38,930 bases of DNA, from positions 1 through 38,930 of the forward strand of contig JACPVQ010000211.1 of the NCBI GenBank assembly GCA_016191645.1, read 5' to 3'. The stretch's first letter is position 1. The number at the start of each line of letters is the position of its first letter. The translations under genes were made by a program, and so were the position numbers. Shown piece after piece: positions 13,787-19,839 of this stretch. The notes beneath the pieces were generated by a model. It searched no databases. It worked only from the letters and a program-made list of their open reading frames with translations, and was not told where the DNA came from. The stretch is from Candidatus Solibacter usitatus. Its GTDB lineage: Bacteria; Acidobacteriota; Terriglobia; Bryobacterales; Bryobacteraceae.

Positions 13787-14092
13787 GTGGGAAGGAAATC
13801 AACTCGCCAACAAATTCTGAAGGACGCCTGGATCGGCGATGCGGTGTTGTGCCTCTACGCGCGGCGCAGAATTCTACGCGATGACGGAGGCATTGATGGA
13901 CCCAAGGTCCAGCGCATGACCTCGAACCAGTTTCTCTCCATTATTGGAGAGCCGAGCGAAACCGAGGCTGAGATCGGCCGTATCTTCGAACGAGACGGGC
14001 TGGAAGCAGCGTACCGTTGGATTGAAGAACATCTCATCCCCGTCTTTGAACGTCAGGAAGCAAAAAGAAACGGTGCTAAGACAAAAACTTGA
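13787..14092 (+). CDS. Small RNase III-fold protein (Mini-III-like)
   Basis: The 101-aa protein starts at GTG 13787, 6 bases after the receptor stop. DAWIGDAVLCLYARRRIL resembles the first catalytic helix of Mini-ribonuclease III (IGDAV), and the later ETEAEIGRIFERDGLEAAYRWIEEHLIP resembles the second catalytic helix of RNase III (EALIGAIYLDGG). The Asp of IGDAV and a Glu at the EALIG position, the two key catalytic residues of the family, both seem present. The stretch between them is shorter than in the standard enzymes, so it may be a minimal or inactive version. Its 3' end overlaps the convergent gene by 17 bases. The family assignment is by eye and moderate. Confidence 0.6.
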   Translation: MGRKSTRQQILKDAWIGDAVLCLYARRRILRDDGGIDGPKVQRMTSNQFLSIIGEPSETEAEIGRIFERDGLEAAYRWIEEHLIPVFERQEAKRNGAKTKT

Positions 14093-14861
14093 AAAAGCCC
14101 TTTTTGGGTTTCACCTCAGGCAACCCTAACTGCGCGCGGAACGGAGCGGCCTCCTCCGGCGTTAACGGCTTGGACACTTTCACCACATGGTCCGATTCGC
14201 GAATGCGGCAGCACACGTCCACGCAATGCCAGCAGCGCACCATGTGAAATTCGTAGTCGCGTTTTTGTGCCCACGTAATGCGGCCGTCGAGCATGTCGAT
14301 ATAGGCCTTCGATAGCAGGCATTTCTCACCGCGCGCCGCCCTTGCAAGGTTGCAGAGCCCGTGGCCGTTGGTTGTAAGCAGGCCGCGTTTCCAGGAATCG
14401 AGTTTCCCGCGAAGAGCTTCCTCCGCGCGTTCCCGCGCCTTCCCGATGGTCGACGCTTCCAGGTTCATCATCAACGCGGTCTCCTCCAGGCTGTACGCCA
14501 TGGTTGACAGCCATAGAAACTGGCGCTCCGTCGCGGTGAACTCTTCAAAAGCGGCAGTAAGCGTTTCCAAATCCAGATCACTGGCGGGTGCGTCTGTACC
14601 CTCCACTCCGTCGATCACTTGCAGGCGCAGTGCGGCTACCCATTCGCGGTCTGTGATCGGCGCATCCGCTCCGTACAAAGGAAGAGTCGGATCATGCAAG
14701 CGCTTCATGACCCCCGCCAGCAGCGCCTGATCGCGGCCGGGATAATAGTGGGCCAGCAAGCGCCGGATCATCGGCAGATAATACGAAATCAGGTACGACC
14801 AGCCCTCCGCCAGATTCCCGCGGCAGTCTCGCGTCATTTCACGGCAAGTGTAGATAGCCAA
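14076..14861 (-). CDS. Sigma region-4-like HTH protein with C-terminal HxxxCxxC zinc motif
   Basis: The 261-aa protein has no named family that I can assign. Residues about 98-156 (LTAAFEEFTATERQFLWLS...MMNLEASTIGKARERAEEALRG) read like sigma-70 region 4: an acidic helix, an L-x-x-x-E-R segment, then an HTH with R/A-rich recognition helix. Residues 181-218 read like a ZAS anti-sigma zinc domain: C181, then AYIDMLDG...KRDYEFH206MVRC210WHC213. The N-terminus (1-75) is helical, like region 2 but weak. A single chain carrying both a sigma-like and an anti-sigma-like part would be self-regulated. It is last in the minus-strand block, 11 bases after the dehydrogenase. Its 3' end overlaps the convergent RNase III-like gene. 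Confidence 0.65.
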   Translation of the reverse strand: MAIYTCREMTRDCRGNLAEGWSYLISYYLPMIRRLLAHYYPGRDQALLAGVMKRLHDPTLPLYGADAPITDREWVAALRLQVIDGVEGTDAPASDLDLETLTAAFEEFTATERQFLWLSTMAYSLEETALMMNLEASTIGKARERAEEALRGKLDSWKRGLLTTNGHGLCNLARAARGEKCLLSKAYIDMLDGRITWAQKRDYEFHMVRCWHCVDVCCRIRESDHVVKVSKPLTPEEAAPFRAQLGLPEVKPKKGFFKFLS

Positions 14862-14872
14862 TCGACCCTCTC

Positions 14873-16372
14873 TTACAACTCGAACTTGATTCCTTGCGCC
14901 AGCGGCAATTCACCGGACCAGTTGATGGTCACGGTTTGTCTGCGCATATATGCCTTCCAGGCATCCGACCCCGACTCGCGCCCGCCGCCCGTTTCTTTTT
15001 CGCCGCCAAACGCGCCACCAATCTCCGCGCCGCTGGTTCCGATGTTGATGTTCGCAATGCCGCAATCGCTTCCGCGCGCGCTGAGAAACGTTTCCGCCGC
15101 GGTGAGATCGTTCGTGAACATCGCCGAACTCAATCCCTGCGGAACGCTATTGTGCCATTCCATCACTTCGTCCAACTTATCGAATTCCATCAAGTAGAGA
15201 ATTGGCGCGAAGATCTCCTCTCTCACAATGGGCATGCGAGGATCCGCTCTAACAATCGCCGGCTCGACAAAACTGCCACTCGTGTTCAACCGCGCTCCAC
15301 CGTGGAGAATCTCGCCTCCCTCCGCAATGGCGCGTGCCAGGCCCTCGGACATCATCCGCACCGCCTCTTCATCGATCAGCGGCCCCATCAATGTGCCGCT
15401 GTCCAAAGGATCGCCAATGCGCACCTGACGATACGCCGCGACCAACTTTTCGGTGAAGGCAGTCGCAATCGAGCGATGCACGAACAGACGGCGAATGGAG
15501 GTGCAGCGCTGACCCGCGGTTCCCACCGCTCCAAACAGAACGGCTCGCAGCGCGAGATCGAGGTTGGCATCGGGCATCAGAATGACGCCGTTGTTACCGC
15601 CGAGTTCCAACAGCGTTCGACCCAATCGCGCGGCGACAACTTGCGCCACGCGTTTGCCCATGCGGCAGGAGCCGGTGGCGCTGATCAGCGGCACGCGAGG
15701 GTCGGCGATCATGCGCTCACCCACCGTATCATCGCGTCCGATGACGAGTTGGAACACGTCGCGCCAACCATGTAAATCTGCCACGTGCTGGACGATTTGC
15801 ATGGTTGCGATCGCGGTGAGCGGCGTCTTCAAGGACGGCTTCCAAATCGACACATCGCCGCAAACGGCTGCGATCAAAGCGTTCCAGCCCCACACGGCTA
15901 CGGGAAAATTGAACGCGCTGATGATGCCCACAATGCCCAACGGATGCCATTGCTCATACATGCGGTGGCCGGGACGCTCACTGTGCGTCGTCATGCCGTA
16001 AAGTTGACGCGACAGGCCCGCCGCAAACGTCGCGATATCGATCATCTCCTGCACTTCGCCGCGGCCTTCAGCGAGAATCTTTCCCGTTTCCATCGATACC
16101 AGTGCGCCCAGATCGTCCTTCGCCCCGCGCAAAGCTTCGCCGATCTCGCGCACGATCTCGCCGCGCTGTGGTGCGGGCAGCATGCGCCAGCGTGCCTGAA
16201 CGCTCGCCGCCTGTTGGACGGTTTGCACGTAGTCAGCTTCTCCTGCCAGGCGCACGCGTGCAATCGCATTGCCGGTCGCAGGTTCAATCGATTCGATTTC
16301 TTCCGCTCCATGCAGGTTGACGGGCGCGATGCCCAGCCGGTCCAGAATGCCCGTTATGTTTGCGATAGCCAT
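14873..16372 (-). CDS. ALDH7-type aldehyde dehydrogenase (aminoadipate-semialdehyde dehydrogenase-like)
   Basis: The ATG at 16372 gives a 499-aa NAD(P)-dependent aldehyde dehydrogenase; the 33 residues before it in the track belong to the overlapping upstream gene. The sequence ELGGNNGVILMPDANLDL followed by GAVGTAGQRC290TS is the signature of the ALDH7 (antiquitin) group. These enzymes oxidise L-aminoadipate semialdehyde / piperideine-6-carboxylate in lysine catabolism, and also betaine aldehyde-like substrates. The catalytic Cys is C290. The start overlaps the 3' end of the radical SAM gene by 19 bases, so both are in one operon. No other lysine-degradation gene is in the window, so the physiological substrate stays open. 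Confidence 0.9.
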   Translation of the reverse strand: MAIANITGILDRLGIAPVNLHGAEEIESIEPATGNAIARVRLAGEADYVQTVQQAASVQARWRMLPAPQRGEIVREIGEALRGAKDDLGALVSMETGKILAEGRGEVQEMIDIATFAAGLSRQLYGMTTHSERPGHRMYEQWHPLGIVGIISAFNFPVAVWGWNALIAAVCGDVSIWKPSLKTPLTAIATMQIVQHVADLHGWRDVFQLVIGRDDTVGERMIADPRVPLISATGSCRMGKRVAQVVAARLGRTLLELGGNNGVILMPDANLDLALRAVLFGAVGTAGQRCTSIRRLFVHRSIATAFTEKLVAAYRQVRIGDPLDSGTLMGPLIDEEAVRMMSEGLARAIAEGGEILHGGARLNTSGSFVEPAIVRADPRMPIVREEIFAPILYLMEFDKLDEVMEWHNSVPQGLSSAMFTNDLTAAETFLSARGSDCGIANINIGTSGAEIGGAFGGEKETGGGRESGSDAWKAYMRRQTVTINWSGELPLAQGIKFEL

Positions 16373-17215
16373 GCGAATGCTTCCGGGCCAAAACCAAATT
16401 GGCGGCCGCAGGCCGCTGCCCGATCTTTCATTGTCGCCAGGATGCGGTCCTGAAAGCCAGCGCGAAACCAATCCTCGTGGTGGTGATGGGCGGCGATGCG
16501 AAACGATTGCTCGCGCGTGGTAGCGCCCATGGGTTTGCGTTCGCGCAAGTGCAACGGGTCGGCAATGATCGCGTGCGGCGATGCGGCCATGGCGAGATCC
16601 AGCAGATGTCCGGCATCACAAGGCAAAATCGGCGCAAGAGTTGCGTGCGCATCAATCCCAGCACCGTTCAGCCGCGAGATCACTTCGAACCTCTCGTCCA
16701 TGGGCGCGCAATGCGGTTCATACAAACGGCGCACGGCGTCGCGATCCGTAGTCACCGAGAAACTCACACGCAGCCTCGTGCGTCTGGACAGCAGGAGCAG
16801 TTGGTCCAAATCGCGCAAAATGAGCGGGCCTCGCGTTTGCATCGTAAACACCGCCGGCGGACACGCCAACAGCGCATCGAGAATCTCTGGCATCAATCGG
16901 CGCTGCTCCTCCGCCAGTTGATAGGGGTCTACCAGAGGCGAACAATAAATGCGCTGCGAAGGCGAGAGCTGCTTTCGAAGAAGTTGCGGCGCGTTGTCCT
17001 TGAACGTTGTGAACTGCCCCCCAGCGACGCCAATCGTCCGGTTGCAGTCCGCCGTAGAGCCCCATCGTGGGAACGTAGCAATACGTGCACGCGAAGGTGC
17101 AATTGCGCGCCGGCGTTAGCGAATGTGTGAAACCGGCTTCGGCGATGAACCCCGATGTGCGCGTGAGTATCCCGCGCGATTGCTGGCCAAATATACGGAA
17201 CCGGTCCGCGCTCAC
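16354..17215 (-). pseudogene. Spore-photolyase-like radical SAM protein, frameshifted
   Basis: The gene would start at GTG 17215, which overlaps the S9 peptidase stop (GTGA). Frame one reads SGFIAEAGFTHSLTPARNC39TFAC43TYC46YVPTMGLYGG, a radical SAM CxxxCxxC cluster motif of the SPL-like family. It then runs out of register at a C-run of six (17017-17022, plus strand). The correct continuation lies in the next frame: QFTTFKDNAPQLLRKQL ... IYCSPLVDPYQ ... SFSVTTDRD. Removing one base gives an uninterrupted 286-aa protein, the expected family size. Thus it is either a true one-base disruption or a homopolymer sequencing error; the otherwise perfect conservation favours a recent or artificial event. 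The function of this family beyond an iron-sulfur/SAM radical reaction is not well defined. Confidence 0.85.
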
Positions 17216-19839
17216 GGCTCGCGTACGACGCGAAAGCCGATATAATCCGGTCGCGGCTTCGACACCGATTTCGCATCCACGGGTTGATCCGCACTGCCGC
17301 CAAGCGCTTTGCCCGTTCCATCTTTTGCCACTGCCCACTCGGCCGCGTTGCCGCCGAGATCGAACACGGGATCATCGCCTGCGCCGGAGTGCGATCCAAC
17401 GGGCTTCAGAAGCGCGCCCGGTCCCAATCCTTCGATTAACGACGACAGCCGGCGGGCATCGTCGAAGTTGACCGCGTATCCGGCCCACGCATCCAGTGTG
17501 TTGTCCAGCTTGTTCGCCGACAACATTCCGCCGGCCTCTTCCTCGGTCGGCAGGCGGTATTTCTTGCCCGTCTTCCGGCTCAGCCATTCGCAATACTCCT
17601 TCGCTTTTTCAAAGGAAACGCCAGTAGCCGGAAATGTTTGGGTACCTTGCGCCACCGCGAAGGAACCGTCGAACGCCTTAAACTGCGCGCGCGTCACTTC
17701 AAAGCGGCCCACTTCCAACGAACCACGCTCCACCATCTCCGGCGTGTCGCTCAAGCCGCGGCGCTTCAACATGGCGGAGAGAGGCGAGTTGTCGCGCAAC
17801 GCCTCGTTCGTGTCCGGCAAAGTGCGGAACAGGTACTGATCGAACCACGCAAGCTCTTCTTCCACTTTGCGGCGCTGATGAACGTATTTTCGCGGACCAT
17901 GCGCTTCGCCTGGAAATAGAATGAATCGAACATCGGTCTTTTCCAGATGCTTCAGGGCGCGATAATGCTGCCAGCCTTGTTCGGTGGGCACCTGTTTGTC
18001 CTCCGTGCCGAAGAAAATGATAGTTGGCGTACGCACTTGGTCCATGCGAAACAGCGGCGATTTCTTGATGTACAGGTCCGGATCTTCCAGCGGTGTTTTG
18101 CCGATGTAGTAATCGTCGAATGAGTGACCGAACTGGCAATTGCCCCAATCGCTGATCCAATTCACGTCGCCCGCGCCCGCGGACGCCACCTTGTACCTCG
18201 TGGTCCGTGTCGTCAATTCAATGGAGATAATGGACCCGTTCGACCACCCCATTACGCCGAGTTTGTCCGCATCGGCCAAGCCCTTGGCGATCAAGGCATC
18301 GACACCGCGCTCGACATCGAACCATTCGAACTCGTTATAGTTTCCGCCCGAAATCGATTCACCCCACTGCAGGCCGTAGTTGGAACTGCCGTGATAGTTC
18401 GGCTTCATGACAAGCGCGCCGCGCTGGGCGAAGAGTTGAACGGGATAGCCCCATCGATCGCTGAACATATCGAGATCCGCGCCGTGTGGGCCGCCGTGAA
18501 TCATCACCACAAGCGGGTACTTCTTGCCCGGCTGATAATCGTGCGGATAGTAGAGCAACCCTTCTACTTGCTCATTGCGCGCACCCTTCCACGTGATGGT
18601 TTCCGAACGCGCCAGCGGCTTTTTCTTCCATGCGGCGTTCGAATCCGTAACCTGCTTTGGCGTTTCGATTTTACTCCCGTTGAGCGTAGCGCTGAACCAT
18701 TGGTCCGGCTTACTTGCCGTCGTGTGCCGGTAGACCAATCGTGTGCCGGAAAGCTGCATCCCGAAAATGTTGGCGCTGTGTTCGCCTTCGAGAAACTCGC
18801 GCGTCCAACTGGCGCCACTTCGGCGATACCTTGCAATGCGCGGACGCACTCCGTTTGCGAGCGAAGCGATCAAACCGTCCTCGGTGACGACGTAGCCTTG
18901 CGCAAGTCCGTTCGGCCAATCGAGCGGAACCTCGCTGATCGCGCTGGTGGCGATCTCGTAATAGTAGAGCCGCTCGATGGACGCGTTGAGGTATTTCGGA
19001 TGCGTCGTATACGGTGAGGCGAAGTAGAAACCCTTGCTATCCTGCGCAAATTGAGCAAAGCGGAGGAGCAGCTTTCCGTCCGCGAAGAGCCGCCGCTCCG
19101 AGTTGTCTTTGAGATTGCGCAGGAAGCTGATCGGGCGGACCTTCTGATCCCAAACGTAGCTCAGGCTCTGATCGTGCGTGGTCACCGCCCATTCGCCGTT
19201 CGGGCTCACTATATGGTTCGAGATGCGGTCGCGGTTTTCCGTGATGCGTCGCGCCTTCTTCGATTGGACGTCGAAGCGGAACAGCCGAGTAGGCACGACA
19301 TGGCGCTCGTCTTCGACAACCTGCGAAGTATCTTTGCGCTCCTTGATCTTCTGCTCATGGAGGCTGTCGTCTTCGGAAGCGACCAGCAGGAGCGTCGTGT
19401 CGTCGATCCAGGAGAAGGAAGAAACGCCTTTATCCATGCGCGTGGCCGCCGCCGGTTCGCCGCCGCGCGTGTCGATGAGCCAGACCTGCATTCCCCCGCG
19501 CCCTCGCCCACCCGCGGCTTCCACCGGGCCCGCTGCGTCGTCCGCCTTGCGCGAACTTAGAAACGCGATGCGGCGGCCGTTGGGAGAGAATCGCGGCGAG
19601 GAGTGGTTATCCTTGCCTTGCGTGAGCGCGACCTCGTAGTCTTCCGTGAGATTGCGCAGCGCAAGGTTGGAAATGCTCTCGCCTTTCTCGCGATCCATCT
19701 TCGATTTGACGTAGACCAGGAGTTTTCCGTCTTTGGAGATCTCCATTTGCGACGCCGATTCGGCAAGTAGAAGATCGTCGACAGACCATTTGGCGCACCA
19801 CGCGCATGCGGCGATAGCGAGAATCAGAGAGTAGCGCAT
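17212..19839 (-). CDS. Exported S9 prolyl-oligopeptidase-family peptidase with C-terminal FGE-like domain
   Basis: The start at 19839 gives a signal peptide (MRYSLILAIAACAWCAK) and 875 aa; the longer ORF in the track merely reads through the upstream repeat. An N-terminal WD/PD40-type propeller (about 30-420) is followed by the alpha/beta hydrolase domain with HGGPHG, the nucleophile motif GWS533NG, Asp614 (GTEDKQVP) and His647 (GEAHGP). Residues about 700-875 form a second domain like formylglycine-generating enzyme/SUMF1 (VGRFEVTRAQFKAFD, GVSFEKAKEYCEWLS, YRLPTEEEA, GGNAAEWA, GFRVV). The paired active-site cysteines of real FGE are missing near the end, so sulfatase activation is unlikely. 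This domain may instead bind something or resemble an EgtB-type fold. It also has a Gly-rich loop. Confidence 0.88.
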   Translation of the reverse strand: MRYSLILAIAACAWCAKWSVDDLLLAESASQMEISKDGKLLVYVKSKMDREKGESISNLALRNLTEDYEVALTQGKDNHSSPRFSPNGRRIAFLSSRKADDAAGPVEAAGGRGRGGMQVWLIDTRGGEPAAATRMDKGVSSFSWIDDTTLLLVASEDDSLHEQKIKERKDTSQVVEDERHVVPTRLFRFDVQSKKARRITENRDRISNHIVSPNGEWAVTTHDQSLSYVWDQKVRPISFLRNLKDNSERRLFADGKLLLRFAQFAQDSKGFYFASPYTTHPKYLNASIERLYYYEIATSAISEVPLDWPNGLAQGYVVTEDGLIASLANGVRPRIARYRRSGASWTREFLEGEHSANIFGMQLSGTRLVYRHTTASKPDQWFSATLNGSKIETPKQVTDSNAAWKKKPLARSETITWKGARNEQVEGLLYYPHDYQPGKKYPLVVMIHGGPHGADLDMFSDRWGYPVQLFAQRGALVMKPNYHGSSNYGLQWGESISGGNYNEFEWFDVERGVDALIAKGLADADKLGVMGWSNGSIISIELTTRTTRYKVASAGAGDVNWISDWGNCQFGHSFDDYYIGKTPLEDPDLYIKKSPLFRMDQVRTPTIIFFGTEDKQVPTEQGWQHYRALKHLEKTDVRFILFPGEAHGPRKYVHQRRKVEEELAWFDQYLFRTLPDTNEALRDNSPLSAMLKRRGLSDTPEMVERGSLEVGRFEVTRAQFKAFDGSFAVAQGTQTFPATGVSFEKAKEYCEWLSRKTGKKYRLPTEEEAGGMLSANKLDNTLDAWAGYAVNFDDARRLSSLIEGLGPGALLKPVGSHSGAGDDPVFDLGGNAAEWAVAKDGTGKALGGSADQPVDAKSVSKPRPDYIGFRVVREP

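Follow-up and report, generated by a model that had tools for sequence, protein, structure and literature searches.

In Actinobacteria, extracytoplasmic function (ECF) sigma factors of the groups ECF48, ECF52 (SCO4117), and ECF53 carry a C-terminal zinc-finger domain that is likely a zinc-binding anti-sigma (ZAS) domain (PMC8999054, PMC5826349), and IutY of Pseudomonas putida (ECF243) is a sigma/anti-sigma hybrid (PMC8999054, PMC5411451); self-inhibition of the sigma part by the on-board anti-sigma domain has been demonstrated in IutY and proposed as the mechanism of ECF52. CorE-type (ECF238) and ECF41 factors are also regulated on board, through their C-termini, with no separate anti-sigma factor (PMC8999054). 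PhyR, of the alphaproteobacterial general stress response, has the correct structure of an ECF factor, but its regions for binding core and promoter are degenerate (PMC8103513). Here we describe, from computational analysis, a protein family of Acidobacteriota in which sigma-type domains and a ZAS-type domain are fused in one chain, a fusion supported on every line tested. The member studied here is encoded in a 38,930-nucleotide stretch of DNA from Candidatus Solibacter usitatus (contig JACPVQ010000211.1, positions 1 to 38,930; hereafter, the window), where the gene and its parts are as follows.

14076..14861, minus strand: sigma-like/ZAS fusion gene, 261 amino acids, TTG start, read 14861→14076 (open reading frame list, same-genus homologs)
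14592..14861, minus strand: sigma region 2-like domain, residues 1–90 (hhalign, AlphaFold2, Foldseek)
14394..14570, minus strand: sigma region 4-like helix-turn-helix, residues 98–156 (hhalign, Foldseek, dN/dS)
14130..14321, minus strand: ZAS/ASDI domain, residues 181–244, with C181, H206, C210, and C213 (hhalign to zf-HC2, ligand conservation)
14079..14111, minus strand: basic-aromatic, MinD-like tail KPKKGFFKFLS, residues 251–261 (motif count, MinD likeness)

A preliminary description of this gene, made from the sequence without database searches, had read a sigma region 4 at about residues 98–156 and an anti-sigma-type zinc motif behind it, and had called the region 2-like part weak. Scans of the single sequence gave nothing above cut-off: the protein had no Pfam family match and scored 17.8 bits against the NCBIfam sigma70-ECF model (TIGR02937), far under the cut-off of 42.9, and family profiles were required. 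When 67 family members were aligned, profile to profile, with 15 ordinary ECF sigma factors (14 from the window genome and L092), hhalign matched the whole sigma part over residues 8–160 at 96.7% (E 3e-10), residues 93–160 at 96% (E 3e-9), and residues 1–92 at 76% (E 2e-5), while the controls gave no more than 0.3% for wrong pairings of the parts, 1.3% for 60 column shuffles, and 0.2% for a reversed alignment. Family profiles also matched ordinary ECF factors at E ≤1e-3 in region 2 (L092, L093) and region 4 (L089), a PDB sequence search matched sigma factors and PhyR domains, and some members gave weak Sigma70_r4_2 matches.

The fusion protein was modeled by AlphaFold2 with a mean pLDDT of 89.9 and a pTM of 0.86. 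In a Foldseek search with the whole model, sigma factors were mostly top-ranked, but none had an E below 0.001 and TM scores were low, probably owing to a different packing of the two sigma domains. Region 4 of sigma-E (2h27) was matched at a probability of 0.94 and a TM score of 0.66 of the target. Modeled alone (pLDDT 87), the sigma2 domain retrieved sigma factors as all of its first 11 PDB matches, with a best TM score of about 0.6 of the query and weak E-values that make this result supportive rather than proof. Both folds, sigma2 and sigma4, are present and in order. The region 4 assignment of the preliminary description is borne out; its N-terminal part, far from weak, is a full sigma2 fold, and the fallback it offered, a helix-turn-helix protein outside the sigma factors, is not right as stated.

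The C-terminal part is supported as an anti-sigma domain. Residues 161–240 matched zf-HC2 anti-sigma factors at 95% (E 4e-8; shuffled controls ≤1.1%), and the family alignment matched nine zf-HC2 sequences at 92% (E 5e-7). Family profiles reached the ordinary zf-HC2 proteins L088 and L091 at E ≤1e-3; individual members gave weak zf-HC2 matches in 6 of 25 cases and matches to the RsrA model in 4 of 17. The modeled helices (184–191, 197–209, 211–229, and 235–244) form a four-helix ASDI layout, with the motif lying across helices 2 and 3, that agrees with the published description (PMC7406223), and W197, G193, and E222 are conserved family-wide. The residues singled out in the preliminary description, C181 and H206xxxC210xxC213, are where it placed them, and the joining of sigma-type and anti-sigma-type parts that it had proposed is supported by these profile comparisons with their shuffled controls. 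Neither result that it had named as refuting, a missing sigma4 fold or a lack of conservation of the Cys/His set, was obtained.

The open reading frame is real, not a chance one, because orthologs occur in 18 of 61 related genomes searched, including 12 of 12 of the same genus (the window's own genome counted). Its TTG start is common to most same-genus homologs and lies 4 nt downstream of a ribosome-site-like GAGAGGG. Of homologs with the same fusion, by which the preliminary description had proposed to check its reading, 67 family members were aligned. In a scan of GTDB contigs, all 36 fusion loci came from Acidobacteriota records, of Bryobacterales/Solibacter type where named. Matches were found in 60 of 237 genomes in the family search, 49 of 299 in the class, and 12 of 396 in the phylum, the last two being lower bounds since scoring was limited to the few best candidates of each genome, and some of the weakest matches at all three levels being ordinary ECF or zf-HC2 proteins; copy number was nearly always one per genome. 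A wide phylum search with profile A4 returned mostly ordinary ECF sigma factors, and its 191 of 396 genomes are not a family count. The family is spread through one class of Acidobacteriota. Beyond it we found one full-length fused homolog in another class (L087/L168), in which AED and F are left of the clamp motif discussed below, and in a further lineage a relative without zinc ligands (L086/L169); both types are divergent. The fusion adds a conserved, uncharacterized regulator family to a phylum with genomes that can encode 40–70 sigma-type proteins. Sigma70_r2 matches numbered 42–73 in each of four same-genus genomes checked (G001–G004) versus 19 in the window's 79%-complete genome.

Between close homolog pairs, dN/dS was 0.07–0.25, with purifying selection on all domains, which rules out pseudogene decay. 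The lowest dN/dS of the three domains fell in region 4 in most close pairs, ruling out a protein in which the sigma part is unconstrained and the ZAS domain alone matters.

Features by which ECF sigma factors work with RNA polymerase are missing from the conserved sigma part. The beta-prime (RNA polymerase) clamp motif D..Q..F of region 2.2 was found in none of the 67 homologs versus 13 of 15 ordinary ECF factors. The sigma2–sigma4 linker (sigma3.2) is about 26 residues shorter than in ordinary ECF factors: W/F74 and residue 108 are spaced by 30–41 residues (median 36) in the family versus 45–69 (median 62), without overlap of the ranges, and about 11 residues are left between the helices in the AlphaFold2 model. 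Deleting the linker of sigma-H, or swapping it for disordered sequence, abolished transcription (Li et al. 2019, PMC6411747). The recognition helix is variable across the class and less basic, with a net charge of +1.3 versus +3.6 in ordinary ECF factors (p 1.5e-6). The preliminary description had suggested a self-regulated transcription factor; the fusion on which that idea was built stands, but a working sigma factor is doubtful because the clamp motif is absent in 67 of 67 and the linker is nearly gone. Since every domain is under purifying selection although clamp motif and linker were lost, we infer that the sigma part is conserved for a role other than ordinary initiation, most simply for packing against the ZAS domain and binding a partner in trans.

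The zinc site bears on gating, which the preliminary description had proposed to be by zinc or redox state. All four ligands are retained by 61 of the 67 members and none by the other six, with no partial sets. The six form one clade (SH-aLRT 98), and a tree from which the ligand columns had been left out places the loss in a single change, so that the ligands behave as a set, but the site is dispensable in one lineage. Because this clade lost all four ligands and retained the whole protein, gating by zinc or redox state is not general to the family; zinc may have a structural role, by analogy with RsiW, for which structural zinc has been reported (PMC7406223). The clade offers a natural experiment for telling a sensing role of ZAS zinc from a purely stabilizing one. 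Its members (L051, L052, L054, L055, L015, L124) keep the fusion and, in most cases, a similar C-terminal tail.

How the fusion arose is suggested by sigma/anti-sigma gene pairs of the same phylum, since in five loci the fused profile spans the stop codon between an ECF gene and the zf-HC2 gene next to it (L170, TAG; L171, TAA; L177, TAA; L190, TGA; L192, TAA). The two-gene arrangement is usual in the window genome, where each of the seven zf-HC2 matches has an ECF gene no more than about 600 bases away. Judged from these sequences, loss of the stop codon in such a pair would be the simplest origin.

Around the fusion gene, the window contains the following features.

14873..16471, minus strand: L-piperidine-6-carboxylate dehydrogenase (ALDH7-type), directly upstream of the fusion gene (NCBIfam NF050084 above cut-off)
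16354–17338, minus strand: PA0069/Rv2578c-like radical SAM gene upstream of the dehydrogenase, in two frames near 17019
13787–14092, plus strand: gene for a small protein that weakly resembles RNase III-type proteins (PF20614 at E 3e-4, under the cut-off)

The fusion gene starts 11 nt past the stop of the aldehyde dehydrogenase gene, and an ALDH7-type gene is immediately upstream in 16 of 36 other loci. In Bryobacterales the fusion gene often follows either this gene or the radical SAM gene, another group has class V aminotransferase and GNAT genes nearby, and other neighbors occur elsewhere. Loci compared across lineages had no neighborhood common to the whole family, and function therefore cannot be read from the neighborhood. 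The radical SAM gene is a single open frame in L024; its split in the window reflects either a frameshift in the genome or an assembly error. The small gene is convergent with the fusion gene, their 3' ends overlapping by 17 nt. In another family of the class, the fusion gene is preceded by members of a conserved family of proteins of 106–185 amino acids (L150, L152, L153, L154, L156, L158, L159), several members of which have a signal-peptide-like start; one that was scanned had no Pfam match.

We favor, at about an even chance of being right, a pre-assembled, membrane-tethered, PhyR-like pseudo-sigma/anti-sigma unit that no longer initiates transcription. Adjacent genes for an ECF sigma factor and a ZAS/ASDI anti-sigma factor would have merged into one chain, after which the sigma part would have lost the features that work with RNA polymerase and retained its fold. 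At rest the ZAS domain would clasp its own sigma2 and sigma4 domains, and the basic-aromatic tail would hold the unit at the membrane, replacing the transmembrane helix of many anti-sigma factors. On a signal the clasp would open and expose either the sigma-like face or the ASDI, which would then bind a partner in trans, an anti-sigma factor or an ECF sigma factor, much as PhyR does in Alphaproteobacteria. If so, the fusion of a sigma/anti-sigma gene pair would be a second route to sigma mimicry, of which PhyR is the case described in detail. Somewhat unlikely, in our judgment, is the further step of a self-contained partner switch, in which the opened membrane-tethered chain captures a real sigma or anti-sigma factor; such a switch would couple membrane state to the many ECF sigma factors of these bacteria across the whole class.

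Tethering by the tail would be analogous to that of MinD, whose E. coli C-terminus, KKGFLKRLFGG, resembles KKGFFKFLS of the window protein. Tails in the family have a basic stretch and then patterns such as GLLARMFAK, PFWKKMFAP, or AWKRLFG. A strict tail motif, found in 52 of 68 family members versus 1 of 290 neighboring-gene proteins, supports the favored explanation, and the last 12 residues carry a net charge of +3.3 in the family versus +0.7 (p 3e-21), a measure less circular than the count of motifs. No member has a transmembrane-like stretch: peak 19-residue hydropathy is 0.66 in the window protein and 1.55 in the whole family, with none above 1.6. Several observations weigh against the tethered pseudo-sigma unit. 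The strict tail motif was refitted on the same family after a first, narrower expression had matched 32 of 69, which makes its count partly circular; the tail of the window protein itself deviates from this strict form. The hydrophobic moment of the tails was not significantly above background (p 0.056), and the sequence match of PhyR to the family profile was weak (E 0.04). The pTM may point to a defined packing of the domains. The strong constraint on region 4 would be expected of retained DNA binding no less than of packing in a clasp. No partner protein was identified, and neighborhoods vary between lineages.

Among the other explanations, a working ECF sigma factor that its own zinc anti-sigma domain holds inactive, and that loss of zinc, oxidation of thiols, or proteolysis sets free, would account for a chain with the two sigma domains and the entire ASDI, for the strongly constrained sigma4, and for the scattered Sigma70_r4_2 matches, and fusions of this kind have precedents (PMC8999054); we consider it unlikely, however, given the missing clamp motif, the shortened linker, the less basic recognition helix, and the clade without any zinc site. 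The constraint on region 4 could also reflect a DNA-binding regulator that uses only this helix-turn-helix, with the ZAS domain as effector and region 2 as a structural relic, and its position behind an ALDH7-type gene in the window and 16 other loci would then point to the dehydrogenase operon as a possible target. This explanation seems to us improbable: the low net charge and variability of the recognition helix do not favor it, the operon context holds only within part of Bryobacterales, and region 2 is conserved too. Least probable of all is a structural or degenerate remnant with a role other than regulation, such as a membrane-associated scaffold in which zinc only stabilizes the fold. 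The tail motif and the persistence of the protein in the clade that lost its ligands together are as such a remnant would have them, but all domains are constrained, and the ASDI layout is conserved, as are the family-wide W197, G193, and E222.

The acidobacterial family can be set against known systems. RsrA, ChrR, and RsiW share with it the class ZAS/ASDI, with the Cys, HxxxCxxC, and four ASDI helices, but are separate proteins, whereas the ZAS domain here is fused behind a sigma-like part. The C-terminus of CorE-type and ECF41 factors is a cysteine-rich or SnoaL domain, not a ZAS domain. PhyR resembles the family in its degenerate sigma2–sigma4 fold with a short linker, and where a true ECF factor (5uxx) needs a 14-residue insertion at the linker to be aligned with the family profile, the sigma-like domain of PhyR (4g97) needs none; PhyR, however, has a receiver domain and NepR as its binding partner in trans, whereas the acidobacterial protein has a fused ZAS domain and, by Pfam scan and AlphaFold2 model, no receiver domain. 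IutY likewise carries sigma and anti-sigma functions on one chain but is membrane-anchored, as ECF48, ECF52, and ECF53 are, whereas the acidobacterial family has no transmembrane helix and its sigma activity is doubtful. No description of the family was found in the literature searched; the full ECF re-classification, which lay outside that search, may assign it. In ECF48, ECF52, and ECF53, sigma domains and a C-terminal zinc-finger, likely ZAS, domain also share one chain, but there the chain has a transmembrane helix, or two, and is extended by as many as 400 residues; the acidobacterial proteins have a short tail and are without the clamp motif and the linker. The sigma–ZAS fusion is already known as a type, and the acidobacterial family is an uncharacterized, differing version of it.
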